Shown here: piece after piece, positions 6,349-24,020 of the stretch | Position numbering within the stretch: position 1 is the first letter of the stretch | Layout: each line of letters starts with the position of its first letter | Source of the DNA: Candidatus Poribacteria bacterium | Lineage (GTDB): Bacteria; Poribacteria; WGA-4E; UBA9662 | Assembly (NCBI GenBank): GCA_012963885.1 | Contig: DTUY01000218.1 | Coordinates: 44,264-108,263, forward strand | Direction: 5' to 3' | Length of the DNA stretch: 64,000 bases | The notes under the pieces: generated by a model | What the model was told of the DNA's origin: nothing | Databases searched by the model: none | What the model saw: the letters and a program-made list of their open reading frames with translations, nothing else | Position numbers and translations under genes: made by a program

Positions 6349-9300
6349 ATGCAGAGGTTCGTCGCCTGTTTCCTATTGTTTTGTACTATCCTATTGGTGA
6401 TTCTAGCCACAGATGGTGAGTGCTCAAGTCTTCCTCAGCTTACTATTGACCAGATCGAAGGAAACAACGGGATTATAAAAATCCATTATACGACCAGTGA
6501 CCCAATGGGAAGATTGTTGTCAACGGCAAACTGGAAATATAGTACGAATGGCGGCGCGACTTGGATAATAATTAATCAATCTGCAATTCAAAACAATGAA
6601 CCAAAGCTATCTGGTCAGCACTTTATTCTCTGGAATACAAATGAGGGTTTGAACAACCTTTCGGGGCTATATCAACCGTCTATTCTCCTCCGCATGGAAG
6701 CATTTGATATTGATGTTGGTCCTGCGGGACAATGGCGAAAAATCGAAGATATGAGTTTCGCTCGTGCATTCTTAACTGCTGCTGTTATTAACGATGATAT
6801 TGTGGTTATCGGCGGTCAGGATAAAGGAAAGTTGGCGCCAACAGAATCATATAACCTGATAACCGAAGAATGGATCGGTCAAGTGTCAATGCCAGTTGAT
6901 GCCCGGATAGATCTTGGTGCGGCTTTTTCCAGTCAGAGGCTCTATCTTGTGGGTGGATATGATGGTCGACGTCTCTCCACGGTGGAATTATATATCATTA
7001 GGGATGACATATGGAAGATTGTCAAACCGATGCCCACGCCAAGACAAGGACTTTCTGCCGCCATTGTTGATGGAAAACTTTACGCCCTTGGTGGTCGGTC
7101 GGAAAGCATATTGGATGTAAACGAGGTGTATGATCCAGCAACTGACTCATGGAAAACTGTTGCACCGATGATAAATTTTCGCCAGTCTTTTGCAACTGCT
7201 ACATTAAATAATCGAATATATGCTATTGGTGGGCACGGTAATGAATTTCTTTCTGATGTCGAAGCCTATGATCCTAGAATGGATAAATGGCAACCTGTTG
7301 CTTCGATGCCTACAACGCGGTATGGTCTTACTGCTACTATTGTTAATGGACAGATATATGCTATTGGAGGGAGTAGTAGCGGTAAAGCAATAGCAACTGT
7401 CGAAATTTACGATCCCAAGACTGATACATGGCGAACTTCAGCCCCAATGACTACACCACGTCGAAATCTGGCTTCGGTCAGTATTGGAGAGAAAATTTAT
7501 GCTATTGGTGGCGCGAATGAAGGTGGAGCCTTGGCAACAGTCGAGGAATTCACAATTCCAAGAACATCCGATGTGGCTATATCCAACACTTTTGCTGTTG
7601 CCAATCACATGATAGCAGAAATTATCTCACCGCCCTCAGATACAAAACACAGTGGAACTGTGTCTATTCGAGGCACCGCGATTGGTGAGAATTTCCAGAG
7701 TTGGACACTTGATTATCAAGGGAAAGATGATTTGGATAAAGGCTTCGTACCGATCAGTTTTTCCAACCATTTTGTTGATTCTGGGAGCCTAGGTGAGTGG
7801 GATGTGCATGATTTCCCGGATGGGGAGTATCTTGTGCGTTTGCGAATAACTGATAATCGAGCTGTGACTATCGCTGATCAGATTACTGTTGCGGTTGATA
7901 ACACACCGCCTATATTTACATGTAGGATATTGGGTGCTGGATTAGAGGAAGAGTACATCCGAAACAACACTGCTATCATTGTGAGTGGAACTTCAGAGCC
8001 TAAAATAAGTGTCGTTGAAGCTGCACTGGTTCTGGGTGATGGTTCGAATCAAGCTGATGTCACTGATTTTATCCAAGTGGATCAAGGGGGTCGCATTTCT
8101 GGTAAGATTCTAGGATTTGAGTTGACTGATATTTTCACTATTCGGCTTTCCATAATAGTTGCTGACGTGGCTGGAAATCAAGTTGTCTCCGGTTCGAATC
8201 ATCTTATCGTTGATAATGAACCTCCAGTGGTTGAAATCACTTCACCAGCTGTGGGTGCAAATTTCAGTGGTGGTAAGGTTCTGCTGAGTGGAAACGTTTC
8301 GGATGAATTTTCAGGTGTGCGCCGGATTGAAGTGGATGGAGGGTTTGGCTGGGTGCTGGTTGCTGATACTTCTTATCCCAACTTTCGATCAAGTGCCACT
8401 AAATGGTCTTACGAATACGCACCGCCGATTGGCGATGTTTTACTTTCATTCCGTGCTCGTGCAACCGACAAAGCGGGCAACATACAAATTAGCAATCCCA
8501 AATTAGTCAACTATATGTTGAACCTACCAAGTGTAAATATTTCTGAGCCGACTGACGGTGCTAATTTGATTGGCAGCATATCAATTACTGGAACAGTTGA
8601 TGCTGTCGATTTAGGATGGAAGTTAGAGTATGCGCCTGGTAGTAACGCCGAGGATGGTTGGATTAAGATCGCATCAGGTAAAGAGAATCGAGTTGTCACT
8701 GGGCTACTGGCATTATGGGATATGATGTTATTGCCAGATGGTCCTTATACGTTGCGTCTCACAGCTGAAAATGCGTTCTCCACAGTATCTGTCAAACGAC
8801 AGAACTTATTCAAAACGCCACGTAAACCAGAGGTATCTTTTCAGCCAAATACACCGGCAAACATCGAATTTCCTGACTTAACGCTTTTACGAAAACAGTT
8901 AGATCAGAGAGAGGGTATCACCTTCAAGTCTTCCGCGTTTTCTGATCCTAATATAGAAGATGTCCATACGCGTTCACAATGGCAGATTCGAAGTGCAGAA
9001 GGTAATTATGACAGTCCAGTTTATGATAGTGGAGCGGATAGTGCAAGTTTAACAGATCTTAATCTACTAACTTCACTTGACGTGGATCGGATTTACTATT
9101 GGCGTGTACGACATCAAGACTCAAGTGGTAAGTGGTCAGAATACTCAGCAGAATCCTTTTTCACTACAAAGGCTGTTGGGCGTTTTACCGTCTCGCTAAA
9201 GAAGGGATTAAATTTTATGTCGATGCCAGTTCGTCCTATTGTTCCAATGGATGCAGTTTCACTTGCCCAGAAACTTAAAGCAACTCTCATCATACGCTTT

Positions 9301-10083
9301 GATGCCGAATTGCAAGACTTCGTTTCATACGTGCCTGGGATTTCACGTGATGTTAATTTTTCCATTACTGGTGGTGAAGGGTATATCGTTAATATTTTGG
9401 AATCGAAATCAGTTCCTTTTGAAGGTACAATCTGGGAGGATGTAAATGCGGCACCCCCGCTTGCAATTGATTCTTTTCCGCCATCGACTTGGGCGTTTGT
9501 AATCGGTTTGGAAAAAGCAGTGAATCTGCCGGATAACAGTCTTATTGAGGTCATAAATCGTCGGACGAATAAATCGAGAACTCGAGTCAATAATCAGCAT
9601 GGTTCGACACAGCTTTTCTCTTTCGTTGATATGGATTATCGGTCTGTAGTTGATTTGGGCGATCCTATCCGGATTCGTGTAACTGATACTAGTGGTTATT
9701 CCCTCTTTGAGCCGATAAATTTGATTGTGACAACTGCCGATCTATTACGTGCGGTCCATGTGGTGAGTTTTAATCCGTTAGAACTTCCCGATCAAACCCG
9801 ACTTTTTCAAAACTATCCCAACCCTTTTAATCCTGAAACTTGGATTCCATTCGAGCTTACCGAGGATTCAAACGTGAAAATCACGATCTATGATGTCTCG
9901 GGAAGTCCCGTTCAGAATCTTGATCTTGGTTTCTTATTTGGTGGTAAATACCGGTCTCAAACACGTGCAGCATATTGGAACGGTCAAAATCAGTTGGGTG
10001 AGCTAGTGGGATCGGGGATATATTTCTACCGTTTGAGTACAGACCGTTTTTCGTCAGCTAAGAAGATGATTGTTGTTAAGTAA
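6349..10083 (+). CDS. Large secreted Kelch/Ig-like protein with type-IX-like C-terminal domain
   Basis: A 1244-residue exported protein. A signal peptide ends near residue 25. Six Kelch repeats at about 125-405 (each with a G-G and a Y-D-P or W block, e.g. LYALGGRSESILDVNEVYDP) should form a beta-propeller. Several Ig-like modules follow (residues about 420-830), marked by the repeated V-D-N-x-P-P and I-S-x-P-x-x-G pattern. A fibronectin-like stretch is at about 840-940. The last 100 residues begin FQNYPNPFNPETWIPFEL and end SSAKKMIVVK. This is the FlgD-like/TIGR04183-type fold used as a secretion signal by type IX systems, and it is also common in phyla with no proven system. AAGGAG lies just before the ATG. 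Its stop overlaps the next start by one base, so it leads a coupled unit. Confidence 0.85.
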   Translation: MQRFVACFLLFCTILLVILATDGECSSLPQLTIDQIEGNNGIIKIHYTTSDPMGRLLSTANWKYSTNGGATWIIINQSAIQNNEPKLSGQHFILWNTNEGLNNLSGLYQPSILLRMEAFDIDVGPAGQWRKIEDMSFARAFLTAAVINDDIVVIGGQDKGKLAPTESYNLITEEWIGQVSMPVDARIDLGAAFSSQRLYLVGGYDGRRLSTVELYIIRDDIWKIVKPMPTPRQGLSAAIVDGKLYALGGRSESILDVNEVYDPATDSWKTVAPMINFRQSFATATLNNRIYAIGGHGNEFLSDVEAYDPRMDKWQPVASMPTTRYGLTATIVNGQIYAIGGSSSGKAIATVEIYDPKTDTWRTSAPMTTPRRNLASVSIGEKIYAIGGANEGGALATVEEFTIPRTSDVAISNTFAVANHMIAEIISPPSDTKHSGTVSIRGTAIGENFQSWTLDYQGKDDLDKGFVPISFSNHFVDSGSLGEWDVHDFPDGEYLVRLRITDNRAVTIADQITVAVDNTPPIFTCRILGAGLEEEYIRNNTAIIVSGTSEPKISVVEAALVLGDGSNQADVTDFIQVDQGGRISGKILGFELTDIFTIRLSIIVADVAGNQVVSGSNHLIVDNEPPVVEITSPAVGANFSGGKVLLSGNVSDEFSGVRRIEVDGGFGWVLVADTSYPNFRSSATKWSYEYAPPIGDVLLSFRARATDKAGNIQISNPKLVNYMLNLPSVNISEPTDGANLIGSISITGTVDAVDLGWKLEYAPGSNAEDGWIKIASGKENRVVTGLLALWDMMLLPDGPYTLRLTAENAFSTVSVKRQNLFKTPRKPEVSFQPNTPANIEFPDLTLLRKQLDQREGITFKSSAFSDPNIEDVHTRSQWQIRSAEGNYDSPVYDSGADSASLTDLNLLTSLDVDRIYYWRVRHQDSSGKWSEYSAESFFTTKAVGRFTVSLKKGLNFMSMPVRPIVPMDAVSLAQKLKATLIIRFDAELQDFVSYVPGISRDVNFSITGGEGYIVNILESKSVPFEGTIWEDVNAAPPLAIDSFPPSTWAFVIGLEKAVNLPDNSLIEVINRRTNKSRTRVNNQHGSTQLFSFVDMDYRSVVDLGDPIRIRVTDTSGYSLFEPINLIVTTADLLRAVHVVSFNPLELPDQTRLFQNYPNPFNPETWIPFELTEDSNVKITIYDVSGSPVQNLDLGFLFGGKYRSQTRAAYWNGQNQLGELVGSGIYFYRLSTDRFSSAKKMIVVK

Positions 10084-14070: not shown

Positions 14071-14431
14071 TTTGTTTCCTAGCGTCAGCATGGTTCAGTT
14101 CGATTTATTTAGTAAACAACAGTTTTACACTGCTTAATGAATCAATTCTGATTGTGTTTTGATACACTTAATTTATAAAATCAACATTAGTTAGGTTTTT
14201 CAACCCTAAGTGTGATTAAAAATAGTTTGAATATCATATTTAGTAGAATGAGATCTATGTCATGGAAGATGCTTCTTGCTTAAAGAGGATAGTGATTTTT
14301 CGGTGACGTTTACTAGTTTCTTAAATACTTGCTTGGTCTCAAATCATGGTTGACTGATAGTTAATATTGGAGCTAGTGCTTAGTTATTCAGGTCAATAGC
14401 ATGGCTATAGCAAAAAAGACGACGGACGTGA
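14071..14431. other. Intergenic region, 361 bp
   Basis: This AT-rich spacer separates divergent genes and so must hold the promoters for both, but I see no clear -35/-10 pair, operator or RNA element in it. Confidence 0.4.
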
Positions 14432-15556
14432 ATGTCATTCATTATATCATTAATTATTCTATTATTTGGATTATTGGGTTCGTCTGTTGAGGCTTTTCCT
14501 GAGTTTGCTCATCTAGTTGATCAGGACTGTTCTTTTTGTCACCTGGATCCAAATGGCAGTGGGCCTCGGAACCCCGTTGGTCAGTTTTTTGACGAAAATG
14601 ACTTTGAATTCCCTGAGGATTTCGATCCTGAAACCTTTATGGCTAAAGCGAATCTTGTAACTCAAAGCCATTCCTTTACTGGAGATATCCGCGTTGCCTA
14701 CATAAAAACATCTCAAGTCAGTCATCGTGATCAGGAAACAGCTGGTTGTATCTCTTGCCATTCCTCTGTGGATACGTTCTTGTTGATGAAATCGGAAGTT
14801 GCTGTTCATGCTCGCGTATCGGATAAGGTTCAGGTTACCTTGTCTCATAATCTTGGGAACCCTTTTGACGCTTTCGGACGAGTTGAAATCATTTCTGATC
14901 GTCTGTGGATAAGAATTGGACAGTTCCAACTACCATTTGCTCTTCGTCAGGATGATCACAATATTCTAGTTAGGAATGGTTACGATTTGGGATCGAATAA
15001 ACGCGATCTTGGCCTTGAGATAATTGGTAACTACAAGAATCTGTTCTTCAATTCAGCTGTTTTCAACGGAAACCGTAACACACTAGCTGATCGAAATCAG
15101 CATAAAGGTCTTTTAACAACCATTGGAGGTGAATTTACTTTCATCCGAGGTGGTATTTCTCATTTGCTTGATAAGCTTGAGGTTCGGGGGGAAGCAATTT
15201 CTGCTGCTTTCCTAATAGCTAATATTAGTAAATTGTCAGTTGAGCTTGAATGTGATTTTAAAGCCCAAAATGGATTCAAAAGTCTCGTTTCCGCTGGCTA
15301 TTATGTGGGAGCTAAATATCGTTTGACGCCTGGATTTTCAGTCTCAGGGCGTTATGAAGCATTTGATCCGGATGGAAGAGTCAAAGGGGATTTAGAACAG
15401 CGGATCATAACCTTTGCTCGGTACAGATTTGCCAAGAATGCATCATTTGAAATCTATTATTGGGGAAACATTGAAAATAATAACAGGGATGATAACAAAA
15501 ATCGGCGACTGAACGGTGTGGATCAAGTGATTTTAATGTCAAGCTTCTGGTTTTGA
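14432..15556 (+). CDS. Outer-membrane porin-like protein with two c-type haem motifs
   Basis: A 374-residue exported protein. A signal peptide ends near residue 22. Two haem c attachment motifs follow: CSFCH near residue 33 and CISCH near residue 107. From about residue 120 the sequence becomes a run of alternating beta strands with polar turns, many ending in aromatic residues, and the last residue is Phe (SSFWF), the usual signature of an outer-membrane beta-barrel. The combination suggests a barrel carrying a two-haem N-terminal domain in the periplasm, perhaps for electron transfer across or at the outer membrane. The family is not recognised. No strong ribosome-binding site precedes the ATG. 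The DUF547 lipoprotein gene follows after 27 bases and may be co-transcribed. Confidence 0.7.
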   Translation: MSFIISLIILLFGLLGSSVEAFPEFAHLVDQDCSFCHLDPNGSGPRNPVGQFFDENDFEFPEDFDPETFMAKANLVTQSHSFTGDIRVAYIKTSQVSHRDQETAGCISCHSSVDTFLLMKSEVAVHARVSDKVQVTLSHNLGNPFDAFGRVEIISDRLWIRIGQFQLPFALRQDDHNILVRNGYDLGSNKRDLGLEIIGNYKNLFFNSAVFNGNRNTLADRNQHKGLLTTIGGEFTFIRGGISHLLDKLEVRGEAISAAFLIANISKLSVELECDFKAQNGFKSLVSAGYYVGAKYRLTPGFSVSGRYEAFDPDGRVKGDLEQRIITFARYRFAKNASFEIYYWGNIENNNRDDNKNRRLNGVDQVILMSSFWF

Positions 15557-15583: not shown

Positions 15584-16471
15584 ATGAATCGGATAAGAAA
15601 TAGGTTGACTGCAAGGCAGATGCTGAACTGGACAAGAATCAATATATTGTTAGTAATCACTATCGTCTTAGGGGGATGTATATTCAGCGGTTGCAAAAGT
15701 AGGGATTTAAAGTCTGATCAACTTTACCAACAAACCGATGTGAGCTTTGAAAGCAAAGCGGATGCTTACCAATCGTATGATGAGGTATTACAAACCTATG
15801 TGGATTCAAGTGGCCGTGTCGATTACAATAACCTAGGCCAAAACCCACTTCAATTGAACAATTTCATAGGTTTTCTCGCAAAGGTAAGTCCGGAAAATCA
15901 TCCTGAGTTATTCCCAACTCAAAATGATAAAAAGGCCTACTGGATCAATGCTTACAATGCTTTAATGATGAAGTCTGTTATTGATAATCCTGATATTACC
16001 AGTGTTAATCAGATAAGTTGGGGAAAAGGGATATTTTGGAGAACTAAATTCATAGTTGGGGGAAAAGAGCGTACTTTGCACCAGATTGAAAATGGTATCC
16101 TACGTAAAAGGTACAAGGATCCACGAATCCATTTTGCTATAAATTGTGCGTCTAACAGCTGTCCTCCGCCAGGCAATCAAATTCTGTCGGGCGACAGTTT
16201 GGATGAACAACTCAATTACAAATTGCAACAATTTATTCGGAATTCATCCAACGTTTTTGTGAGCCATGACACAAAGGAGATAAAATTATCCAGAATTTTC
16301 AAATGGTACAAGAGTGACTTTACTGCAAATGGAATGTCCTTAAAAGAATATGTGCTGCAATCCTTACTTGATATTCCTGATCGGAAAAGGAAAACTGTCC
16401 TTCAGGATTATAAAGTGGGTTATTTTAAGTATGACTGGGGTCTAAATGGGATGACGCTTGATAAACCGTAG
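15584..16471 (+). CDS. DUF547 lipoprotein
   Basis: A 295-residue protein with an N-terminal membrane segment and a lipobox-like Cys (VLGGC or FSGC, residues about 28-37), so it is probably anchored in the envelope. The rest is the DUF547 domain: KKAYWINAYNALMMKSVID, then GKERTLHQIENGILR, DPRIHFAINCASNSCPPP and FKWYKSDF. The conserved N-C-A-S-x-S-C-P-P motif is intact. The biochemical function of DUF547 is not established; the conserved Cys and His suggest a catalytic role. It lies just downstream of the haem-porin gene. Confidence 0.85.
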   Translation: MNRIRNRLTARQMLNWTRINILLVITIVLGGCIFSGCKSRDLKSDQLYQQTDVSFESKADAYQSYDEVLQTYVDSSGRVDYNNLGQNPLQLNNFIGFLAKVSPENHPELFPTQNDKKAYWINAYNALMMKSVIDNPDITSVNQISWGKGIFWRTKFIVGGKERTLHQIENGILRKRYKDPRIHFAINCASNSCPPPGNQILSGDSLDEQLNYKLQQFIRNSSNVFVSHDTKEIKLSRIFKWYKSDFTANGMSLKEYVLQSLLDIPDRKRKTVLQDYKVGYFKYDWGLNGMTLDKP

Positions 16472-17819: not shown

Positions 17820-18740
17820 CTAGAACGGTAAATCAAAATCATCTTCCGCAGGCCCTTTAGGGATAGTGATGCGTTTACTGAGACCACCAAGCATCAGGTT
17901 AAACTGAATTCCGGGAGCGGTTGTGAAGTTGACTGAAAGCGAAGCCTGATCTGAAAGGTTGTATCTTAAACCGAATCCAGTTGGCCTTTTTATTTCGATG
18001 CCATTTGTTATAATTCTGTTTGAATAGTTACCAAGAACCCAAATTTTCTCGTTCAGTTCAAGCTCCCCGCCAATTTGCCAAAAGAAATTTAGGTTACTAA
18101 AGAAGTGGGATCCGATAACAGCATGCATATGGAAATCCGGCATCACTGGTTGCGTTATTGCCATATAAGGTATAACTCCGAGAAAAGACGCTCCGTCTGC
18201 CGGGGAAGTATCTGAAAATTTTTTGTCGATCGTATGATCAATGGTGAAGCCTGTCTGAAATTCGCCACCAACAGAGATGGTTGGTAAACCATCACCAACA
18301 TCAGGCTTGATATTATATTTCATTCCGATTATCGTCTCGAAAACAGGTTGATTGTAAGCGCGTCGGTCGCGATGCATGTCACCGGTATTATAAAAGTCCC
18401 TTACTATTTTCTTGGCTTCTCCACTAGCGAGTGTTCCTCCTAGAATCAAATCCAGGTGATCTCCAATGCCGTAAGTCAATCGAATTGGAATTAGTTTAAC
18501 ATTGGCCAGGAGTTCTAAAATACGTAGTTCTTCAAAATTCCCGATAATGACATCTTGCTTTGTTTCGGAGATGTTCTCTTTCTCATATTGGGTAACTCCG
18601 ATAGAGGTTATGTAGCCACCTTTTCCCAATGTATGAGCTGTCTGCATGGCACCAAGTTCGGTAGGAAATGGCTGAGCGTCGGTAGCTTGTACAGCAATCG
18701 TCACCAGTATCAAGATGATAGTAAACAACGATTTTTCCAT
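17820..18740 (-). CDS. Putative outer-membrane beta-barrel protein, 306 aa
   Basis: A signal peptide (FTIILILVTIAVQATDAQ) is followed by a long series of alternating hydrophobic strands and short polar turns, as in outer-membrane barrels. Features include YGIGDHLDLILGGT, the start of an early hairpin, and PTGFGLRYNLSDQASLSVNF near the end. The last residues (AEDDFDLPF) end in Phe. I do not recognise a named family. It is the last gene of a leftward group (VanZ-like, small membrane protein, FN3 lipoprotein, this), with only a 21-base gap from the previous gene, so these products may act together in the envelope. Confidence 0.65.
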   Translation of the reverse strand: MEKSLFTIILILVTIAVQATDAQPFPTELGAMQTAHTLGKGGYITSIGVTQYEKENISETKQDVIIGNFEELRILELLANVKLIPIRLTYGIGDHLDLILGGTLASGEAKKIVRDFYNTGDMHRDRRAYNQPVFETIIGMKYNIKPDVGDGLPTISVGGEFQTGFTIDHTIDKKFSDTSPADGASFLGVIPYMAITQPVMPDFHMHAVIGSHFFSNLNFFWQIGGELELNEKIWVLGNYSNRIITNGIEIKRPTGFGLRYNLSDQASLSVNFTTAPGIQFNLMLGGLSKRITIPKGPAEDDFDLPF

Positions 18741-22248: not shown

Positions 22249-23616
22249 TTATCTCTTCAAGTTTCCCCACGTTGTTACCAGTTTACCTCTGGCTTCAACA
22301 CTGACCGCCTTAGTGGAAACCAGCTTGACTAAACCAGTTTTCTCCGCTTGCTTGGCAAAGACTATGGAATGAGGGAACCACCCCCCCCAACCCTTAAACC
22401 CTTTTTGGCTTACTGGATGATTATCACCATCACCAACACAAATGCCCATACCGAATTCCATGCCATCCTTAAATTGACTCATGCCAACAGGAGCCATCTC
22501 CTTGGCAGTGAATCTGAATTCATAGTATGTCTTCTTTTGGCTTTCATCTCGGGCGATGGCAACGTCTGCCTTTTGAAGTCCCCCAGTACCGCCAGCAGGT
22601 TGTTGGTTATCGATAATAACCCTGCCATCATTGCTGCTTAAAGCTACATTATAAAGAAATAATGGAAGTCCCTTGGTACGTTTACCCGTTGGTTCAAAAG
22701 CAAGCTGGGCGGCATCACCATTCCAGCCGCTATCATCGTTTTGGTGTTGATCATCAATTACAATCAAACAAAGATAAATAGCAGTTGGATCCCAAGTCAT
22801 CTTAAAGGCAACTGTGTGATCAAATGGGCCTATCCATTTGCCGCCAGCATATTCTTCAAAGGATCTCTTTGGGCCGGAGCCATTGATTCCGGTTTCGTTT
22901 TGGACTCCTATAAAAGTAGGTACGTTAGCCCATTCACCAATATCGGCATCAATCTTTACCTTGATACCAGTCAGAGATTCATAAACATCGTAAGAGTCGA
23001 AGTGCCACTTTTTTGCCAAAGCCAGTGGGTCTTCTTTCAGTTTGAGATCTGTTGGCGTCTTCGTTGGGTCTGAAGTTGTTGGGTCTACCGAATCTTTTGG
23101 CTCAGACGTATCTTTGGGGTCTGGTTCATCTGATTCGCTAACCTTTTTAATCTTGGAAGTGAACTCTTCTGCATTGCCGTCAGCAAGCTTGACCTGAGTT
23201 AGTCTAATTATCGATTTCTTTTTATCAAGTACCTTGAAAGTTGCAGTTGCCAGAATCCCATCTGCTTTTTCGGAAAGCTTACCGCGCGGTGCAGCGACCG
23301 CATAGCGAATAACCCCATCGGATGCTTTGGGTGGGACTTCAAAAACATCGAATGGCAAATAATCGCCAATTTTTACGCTGATGTACTCTAGAGCAGTTGT
23401 GTCATAGGATAGAGTGAACTGAAATCCCGCAATGCCTTTACCTCCGGTGATCTTAACCTCAACCGTTAACTGTTCCCCAATTGCTTGTGATTTTATTACT
23501 GCTGGCTGAACTGAAACCTCCGCAATGGAGAAAGCGGTTGACGGCATAACGAGAACAGAAACTATGGCATATATCACCATGGCACAAAAATTCTGGATGG
23601 TTTTTCTAGCAACCAT
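22249..23616 (-). CDS. Secreted cohesin plus CBM9-like protein with KLxTTWxxxK tail
   Basis: A 455-residue exported protein. The signal peptide ends near residue 31. Residues about 33-150 look like a cohesin domain (VEVKITGGKGIAGFQFTLSY, and GDYLPFDVF), the partner of dockerin. A linker rich in Asp, Pro, Thr and Ser covers about 155-195. Residues about 205-435 resemble a CBM9/DOMON-type sugar-binding domain (DADIGEWANVPTF, AFKMTWDPTAIYLCLIVIDD, GMGICVGDGDN). The last 11 residues (ARGKLVTTWGNLKR) match the end of the LamG protein at 39020. It may display dockerin-bearing proteins such as that at 29093. It stands alone on its strand. Confidence 0.75.
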   Translation of the reverse strand: MVARKTIQNFCAMVIYAIVSVLVMPSTAFSIAEVSVQPAVIKSQAIGEQLTVEVKITGGKGIAGFQFTLSYDTTALEYISVKIGDYLPFDVFEVPPKASDGVIRYAVAAPRGKLSEKADGILATATFKVLDKKKSIIRLTQVKLADGNAEEFTSKIKKVSESDEPDPKDTSEPKDSVDPTTSDPTKTPTDLKLKEDPLALAKKWHFDSYDVYESLTGIKVKIDADIGEWANVPTFIGVQNETGINGSGPKRSFEEYAGGKWIGPFDHTVAFKMTWDPTAIYLCLIVIDDQHQNDDSGWNGDAAQLAFEPTGKRTKGLPLFLYNVALSSNDGRVIIDNQQPAGGTGGLQKADVAIARDESQKKTYYEFRFTAKEMAPVGMSQFKDGMEFGMGICVGDGDNHPVSQKGFKGWGGWFPHSIVFAKQAEKTGLVKLVSTKAVSVEARGKLVTTWGNLKR

Positions 23617-24020
23617 ATCTGTTTCCTATATGATTCTACAGTCTAAGAAAATGCGACATGCTTCTGGACTTACGATGATTGAAATAGTACCACGAACCTA
23701 TGGGAAACGTCAAAAAAGGCCCAAAGTTGCCGTTCCTTTGCCACTGACGTCTTCATGAGAACTGATGTGAAAATGAAAGACAGGGAATCCTATAAAAGTA
23801 TTGGTATGCAGACAAGCCCAACTTTGAGGTTAGTCATTGGGGGATTCAGATGCAGTTTCGCATCTAGATTACGTGACACGCCGATGTGATCCCGCGTTGC
23901 GGAGATAGCGTTGAATTGGTTAGTGAGGGAACCCCACACAATGCTTAATTTTGTAAATGGTTCTTCTCAAGCAGGCGGATGCTTTGGCGATAGGCATTAA
24001 TGCTCAGAATATGTATTCAC
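23617..24020. other. Intergenic region, 404 bp
   Basis: It lies between the 3' end of pheA and the 5' end of the cohesin-like gene, so it should contain the latter's promoter. I see no gene, RNA or repeat that I can support. Confidence 0.4.

Follow-up and report, generated by a model that had tools for sequence, protein, structure and literature searches.

Two haem motifs in one chain: a conserved cytochrome-porin of the Poribacteria and candidate outer-membrane electron conduit

The Poribacteria are mostly uncultured and often sponge-associated bacteria. A gene in a 64,000-nucleotide stretch of a Poribacteria genome, here termed the window, raises the question of whether a cytochrome and a porin can be combined in a single small protein which carries electrons across the outer membrane. 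The open reading frame (positions 14432-15556, forward strand; ATG start, TGA stop) encodes 374 amino acids, in which the initial annotation had distinguished a signal peptide and the motifs C-S-F-C-H and C-I-S-C-H. These are confirmed by the translation, and the two motifs also by their conservation. The signal peptide, delimited by eye, spans residues 1-21 (14432-14494), is hydrophobic and ends in VEA, with the final alanine (residue 21) nearly invariant in an alignment of thirty-eight orthologues (A1). The same alignment delimits an N-terminal cytochrome segment (residues 22-78; 14495-14665; FPEFA...CSFCHLDPNGSGPRNPVG...) incorporating haem motif I (CSFCH; residues 33-37; 14528-14542). The remainder of the chain (residues 79-374; 14666-15553) is predicted to form a sixteen-stranded porin barrel, with haem motif II (CISCH; residues 106-110; 14747-14761) situated in the loop between strands 1 and 2 (L1; residues 94-114; 14711-14773). 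Among the ninety-six open reading frames of at least 80 amino acids in the window, only this one contains CxxCH, and since both motifs are also conserved, the pair is not considered to have arisen by chance.

The exact start of the gene is uncertain because the ATG at 14432 immediately follows an in-frame TGA and gives an n-region without Lys or Arg; the true start may be other than 14432. By eye, an ATG in another frame just upstream (window 14401-14432; MAIAKKTTDV...) would give a charged n-region. Promoter-like and terminator-like sites were rarer than in shuffled sequences.

The closest named match is found in Candidatus Poribacteria SP142, with 79 % identity over the protein. The gene was matched in 58/58 relatives and orthologues were identified in 75/84 genomes of the phylum, both counts including the window's own genome (G000), while a later family profile matched 78/84. 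Of the nine genomes without a match in the 75/84 search, seven are less than 90 % complete (61-88 %). The initial annotation had proposed a search for homologues sharing the two CxxCH motifs, and this bore out the pairing: motif I is intact in 38/38 rows of A1 (and in 62/62 rows of the wider family), and motif II in 37/38. A1 comprises full-length rows, one per genome, with those of the remaining genomes mostly outside it. Omitted from it are the same-locus copies L001, L002, L040, L041, L042 and L051, as well as L019, which has an interrupted reading frame and in which motif II was seen, L033, which is split into two frames with both motifs on the first piece, and L039, a further and weaker hit in which CxxCH is lacking. 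The sole A1 row lacking motif II, that of G002, has an alignment gap at this position and retains the barrel part. Within the family to which the window belongs (G000, G001 and G002), two of the three genomes retain both haem motifs. There is good sequence support for regarding this protein as a conserved cytochrome-porin that carries its two haem motifs on a single chain.

Relatives with a single haem motif occur both within and beyond the phylum. The profile of the family alignment A5 matched 141/386 genomes, 78/84 in the phylum and 63/302 outside it, with many of the outside matches being weak or partial. In the twenty strongest outside loci, derived from eighteen genomes, each porin contains exactly one CxxCH (20/20) and motif II is absent; this CxxCH is followed by Pro in 17/20 rows and by a GxR pattern in 19/20. 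Likewise, the Poribacteria family f7 has a single CxxCH in 5/5 loci, and its five proteins were kept out of A1 as alignment A2. Comparison of A1 and A2 with hhalign gave a probability of 99.7 % over 314 columns. These monohaem relatives thus share motif I with the window protein and are homologous to it over most of its length, but contain one CxxCH where the latter has two. Among the loci examined, the second CxxCH is confined to the Poribacteria. No Pfam or NCBIfam model was matched over the cut-off by the window protein, or in the family by the nine members scanned against Pfam and the five against NCBIfam, and a plasmid search with one outside relative gave no match. In a tree of forty-nine rows, from which thirteen near-identical rows had been dropped, the dihaem rows group with the outside row L107, which has a long branch, and include the monohaem G002, which adjoins the window protein with support values of 95/84. 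The branches of this tree are long and the position of L107 beside the dihaem clade is unsure. The simplest reading is that motif II was gained once in the Poribacteria and lost once in G002.

The initial annotation had also described a beta-rich barrel with a terminal Phe and proposed structure prediction as a check, with the lack of a barrel as a refutation. Sixteen strands were predicted with AlphaFold2 in both the window protein (mean pLDDT 64; pTM 0.63) and the orthologue of G012 (pLDDT 70; pTM 0.67), and the chain ends in Phe-374 (MSSFWF), in agreement with that description. Both models matched porins by Foldseek and VIA-align, with OmpT, OmpU, PorB and OprO/OprP among the best. Z-scores against solved structures were 19.9-21.6 for the window protein, among the fifty matches shown, and 21.9-24.1 for the orthologue, for which OprO ranked first; the OprO/OprP matches to the two models scored between 20.8 and 24.1. 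The porin alignments to the window-protein model mostly begin at residue 71-81, approximately at the first strand. Hydrophobicity alternation over the sixteen predicted strands, calculated across A1, averaged 2.27 versus 1.36 ± 0.25 in shuffles, 2/2000 of which reached this value, and supports membrane strands overall, with strands b7, b8, b10 and b12 alternating little (<1.0). Direct sequence search of the PDB with the porin gave nothing useful (best E 0.48), and the one PDB profile match (E 0.056) covered only 37 positions of a multihaem cytochrome.

Linkers after the odd-numbered strands comprise 21, 5, 24, 12, 8, 4, 12 and 17 residues, and those after the even-numbered strands 4, 3, 2, 2, 2, 2 and 2. 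The N- and C-termini of porins are periplasmic, and on this basis the long linkers, including L1 with motif II, are predicted to be extracellular; L1 is the same loop in the orthologue model. Low pLDDT values in the window-protein model are found at residues 16-77, 97-113 and 176-185, which correspond to both haem segments and part of the loop L3, and the N-terminal cytochrome segment is mostly of low pLDDT in both models. Because of this low confidence, the exact place of the haem segments and of this part of L3 is inferred, while the barrel and the extracellular side of L1 represent predictions of fair quality.

Loop L3 (residues 167-190; 14930-15001) contains a conserved Asp175-His176 pair. 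Apart from the histidine of the motif I CxxCH, His176 (codon 14957-14959) is the only histidine that is invariant in both A1 (38/38) and A5 (42/42). It is kept in 58/62 rows of the wider family, with the Asp-His pair in 4/4 f7 rows and the histidine in 16/20 rows from outside the phylum, where it is absent from the other four. His176 is thus a likely candidate, on grounds of conservation, for the second iron ligand of haem I. L3 is the constriction loop of classical porins, so that haem I is probably located in the lumen. Met119 was considered as a haem ligand, being present in 58/62 rows, but by strand alternation it lies on the face that is hydrophobic and probably points outward, and His176 was preferred. 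For haem II, no clear second (distal) ligand was found among the conserved residues. Direct predictions for spectroscopy and mutagenesis follow from the conserved histidine of L3 and the haem motif of L1.

Taken together, the protein is rather likely to represent a single-chain, probably two-haem conduit which relays electrons across the outer membrane. It would be exported by Sec, loaded with haem in the periplasm by the Ccm machinery and folded as a sixteen-stranded porin. Haem I, in the N-terminal segment, would probably plug the barrel with His176 as its likely second ligand, and haem II would lie at the outer mouth in L1. The two haems may then relay electrons between an external substance and periplasmic carriers, as is proposed for Cyc2 with its one haem. 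Inward flow, in which an external reductant is oxidised and feeds the aerobic chain, is favoured only slightly over outward flow.

The initial annotation would have been undermined by a genome without cytochrome c maturation genes, which does not apply here. A CcmE match occurs in G000 (contig C420), 353 bp from a match to Cytochrom_C_asm, and a second Cytochrom_C_asm match, with an in-frame stop, is found on contig C296. ResB, of System II, was not matched in G000 and occurs in 2/84 genomes of the phylum; System I is therefore the likely maturation route. G000 can thus probably attach haem. Judging from profile matches to COX1 and to CBB3-type cytochrome c (PF13442; two over the cut-off and four further below it), an aerobic chain is also present.

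The gene neighbourhood provides further evidence on function. Across the order, the product of the gene just upstream resembles a lipoprotein and carries a Cytochrome_P460 domain, for which the two proteins scanned scored 44.0 and 45.7 bits (PF16694; cut-off 27); a C-terminal CxxCH is present in 8/8 aligned proteins. The gene has this position in 58/75 porin genomes (same contig and strand; 102-1439 bp between matches), and one also adjoins an outside-phylum relative (L100; 35.7 bits against the cut-off of 27). The protein could on this account be the outer-membrane partner of P460 in hydroxylamine or NO oxidation or detoxification, with the window lineage having lost P460 and retaining a relic or a porin with another partner. 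The seventeen porin genomes in which this arrangement was not matched are G000, G001, G002, G003, G005, G006, G020, G052, G062-G066 (five), G068, G069, G072 and G079. Among these, a search for PF16694 gave no match in the window's family (G000, G001 and G002), yet the porin is kept in all three and both motifs in two of them, which renders such a partnership unlikely as the explanation. As P460 was not found in this family and motif II is missing from G002, neither appears to be indispensable.

In the window itself, no redox gene adjoins the cytochrome-porin. The DUF547 lipoprotein which the initial annotation noted as following it is indeed encoded 27 bp downstream (15584-16471; PF04784, E 7e-25), but a relative is found at no other of loci L001-L113, the corresponding stretch of the sibling genome included. 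Its adjacency was therefore treated as chance and the protein was rejected as a partner.

Among the twenty outside loci, the immediate neighbour most often over the Pfam cut-off is YceI (8/20; L097, L098, L099, L100, L103, L104, L106 and L111). In these eight the YceI-like gene lies directly downstream of the monohaem cytochrome-porin, which suggests a conserved two-gene unit. Other outside neighbours over the cut-off include a PSCyt1 cytochrome (L096 and L101), the P460 of L100, and a plastocyanin-type copper protein (L105), with a cytochrome c over the cut-off also close by in L093. Below the cut-off are CBB3-type cytochromes in L095 (two proteins), PSCyt1 in L102 and P460 in L101. No redox family was found in L107-L110 and L112 (5/20), for which a single neighbour was scanned per locus. 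The redox-type neighbours fit an electron-transfer protein. They argue against the protein serving as a diffusion porin plugged or gated by haem, or as a haem-based sensor, rather than as an electron wire. Its general porin fold and a gate formed by the conserved N-terminal segment and L3 would agree with such a role, but redox genes recur beside family members and a second haem motif, needless for a gate, is retained in one clade, so that this appears quite improbable.

For the preferred reading of an electron conduit, the initial annotation had taken MtrA/MtrB as its comparator in proposing that cytochrome and porin are combined in one small protein. MtrAB, PioAB and MtoAB are described, in the excerpted text of PMC10654088, as comprising a separate decahaem cytochrome and a separate porin. 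Haems and an outer membrane barrel for electron passage across the outer membrane would be common to these and the window protein, whereas there two proteins are involved and here one chain with two motifs. An MtrA/MtrB-type system was rejected as the window encodes no other CxxCH protein among its open reading frames of at least 80 amino acids. The fusion itself stands and electron transfer is inferred; the proper comparator is Cyc2, which the excerpted text of PMC8406198 describes as a fused cytochrome-porin with one haem, recognised by AXPXFAR[Q/K][T/Y] upstream of CXXCH, PXL downstream and a length of at least 365 residues, and with a barrel likewise matched to OprO/OprP structures (PMC8406198). 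A fused cytochrome-porin is therefore not itself new; the window protein differs in carrying a second haem motif, in where this motif lies in the barrel, and in belonging to a sequence family of its own. In the literature excerpts retrieved, nothing was found on this protein or on described di-haem or porin-fusion relatives, and those retrieved for Poribacteria together with cytochromes or extracellular electron transfer held nothing on this protein.

Like Cyc2, the window protein combines in one chain a signal peptide (by eye) and a short N-terminal CxxCH segment with a predicted sixteen-stranded outer membrane porin domain of the OprO/OprP type. It has AxPxFA at the Cyc2 spacing upstream of CxxCH and, at 374 residues, exceeds the Cyc2 minimum length. 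In contrast to Cyc2, it has two CxxCH motifs and the conserved L3 Asp-His, HLV (TEL, AEL, AQE or similar in orthologues) replaces R[Q/K][T/Y], and PxL is absent, with CHLDPNGSGPRN, that is DPxGxGPRN(xxG), following motif I. A motif peptide was used to find annotated plasmids, and six of their proteins were assigned to the Cyc2 type by their motifs; the exact AxPxFARQT is present in three of these, the others having AxPxFAAQT or AxPxFNRQT. With hhalign, the family matched the six at a probability of 83.5 % (E 8e-6) over 31 N-terminal columns only, and the monohaem f7 branch matched them at 92.7 %. A Cyc2 profile matched 6/84 genomes of the phylum, G000 not among them, and four of the six matches are N-termini of the window protein's own family. 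The other two, at L114 (G021) and L115 (G063), look like genuine Cyc2-type proteins (AMPAFARAYGMTCNTCH... and AIPPFSRRYSTSCSTCH...), their open frames being 477 and 497 residues long. At L093 (1124-2617) and L094 (954-2507), a Cyc2-like protein (IPAFARREKMPCHRCHDSWPRLNKFG in L093) adjoins a GGG-type member of the cytochrome-porin family. Close to both Cyc2-like genes is a two-CxxCH protein, that of L094 resembling that of L093. As Cyc2-like proteins occur in these two other Poribacteria genomes and, at L093 and L094, beside a family member, both kinds of protein coexist. That the window protein is a true Cyc2-type iron oxidase whose sequence has diverged and which has acquired a further haem motif is very doubtful, given that the shared spacing, the hhalign matches and the similar barrel are set against a similarity limited to 31 columns, DPxGxGPRN in place of the diagnostic residues (the Arg of which, in the exact AxPxFAR form, is present in three of the six reference rows) and the existence of distinct Cyc2-like proteins. 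From sequence and models, the protein probably functions like a Cyc2-type cytochrome-porin and should not be filed as Cyc2.

A fuller reading may tentatively be put forward, in which the mature chain of approximately 353 residues would be a complete two-haem outer membrane wire, with haem I held in the pore by the constriction-loop histidine and haem II covalently attached to the first extracellular loop, and which would have evolved once from a widespread, unnamed monohaem cytochrome-porin family to become a core trait of the Poribacteria. If so, electrons could cross the outer membrane via one small two-haem protein, far simpler than the decahaem complexes, and a second cytochrome-porin family, extending well outside the phylum, would stand beside Cyc2. 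For the Poribacteria, the protein would also be a conserved feature that ties respiration to the exterior in a way that can be tested.

Several other genes in the window encode secreted or barrel-like proteins or carry recognisable domains. A secreted Kelch-like protein of 1244 amino acids with a FlgD/T9SS-like C-terminal segment (by eye) is encoded at 6349-10083 on the forward strand, with a relative at the corresponding position of the sibling genome. On the reverse strand, the product of 22252-23619 contains a cohesin domain (PF00963) and, below the cut-off, a region resembling CBM9. A second small barrel-like protein (17820-18740, reverse strand; OMP_b-brl below the cut-off) adjoins a 410-amino-acid open reading frame, and the sibling genome has relatives of both at the equivalent position.
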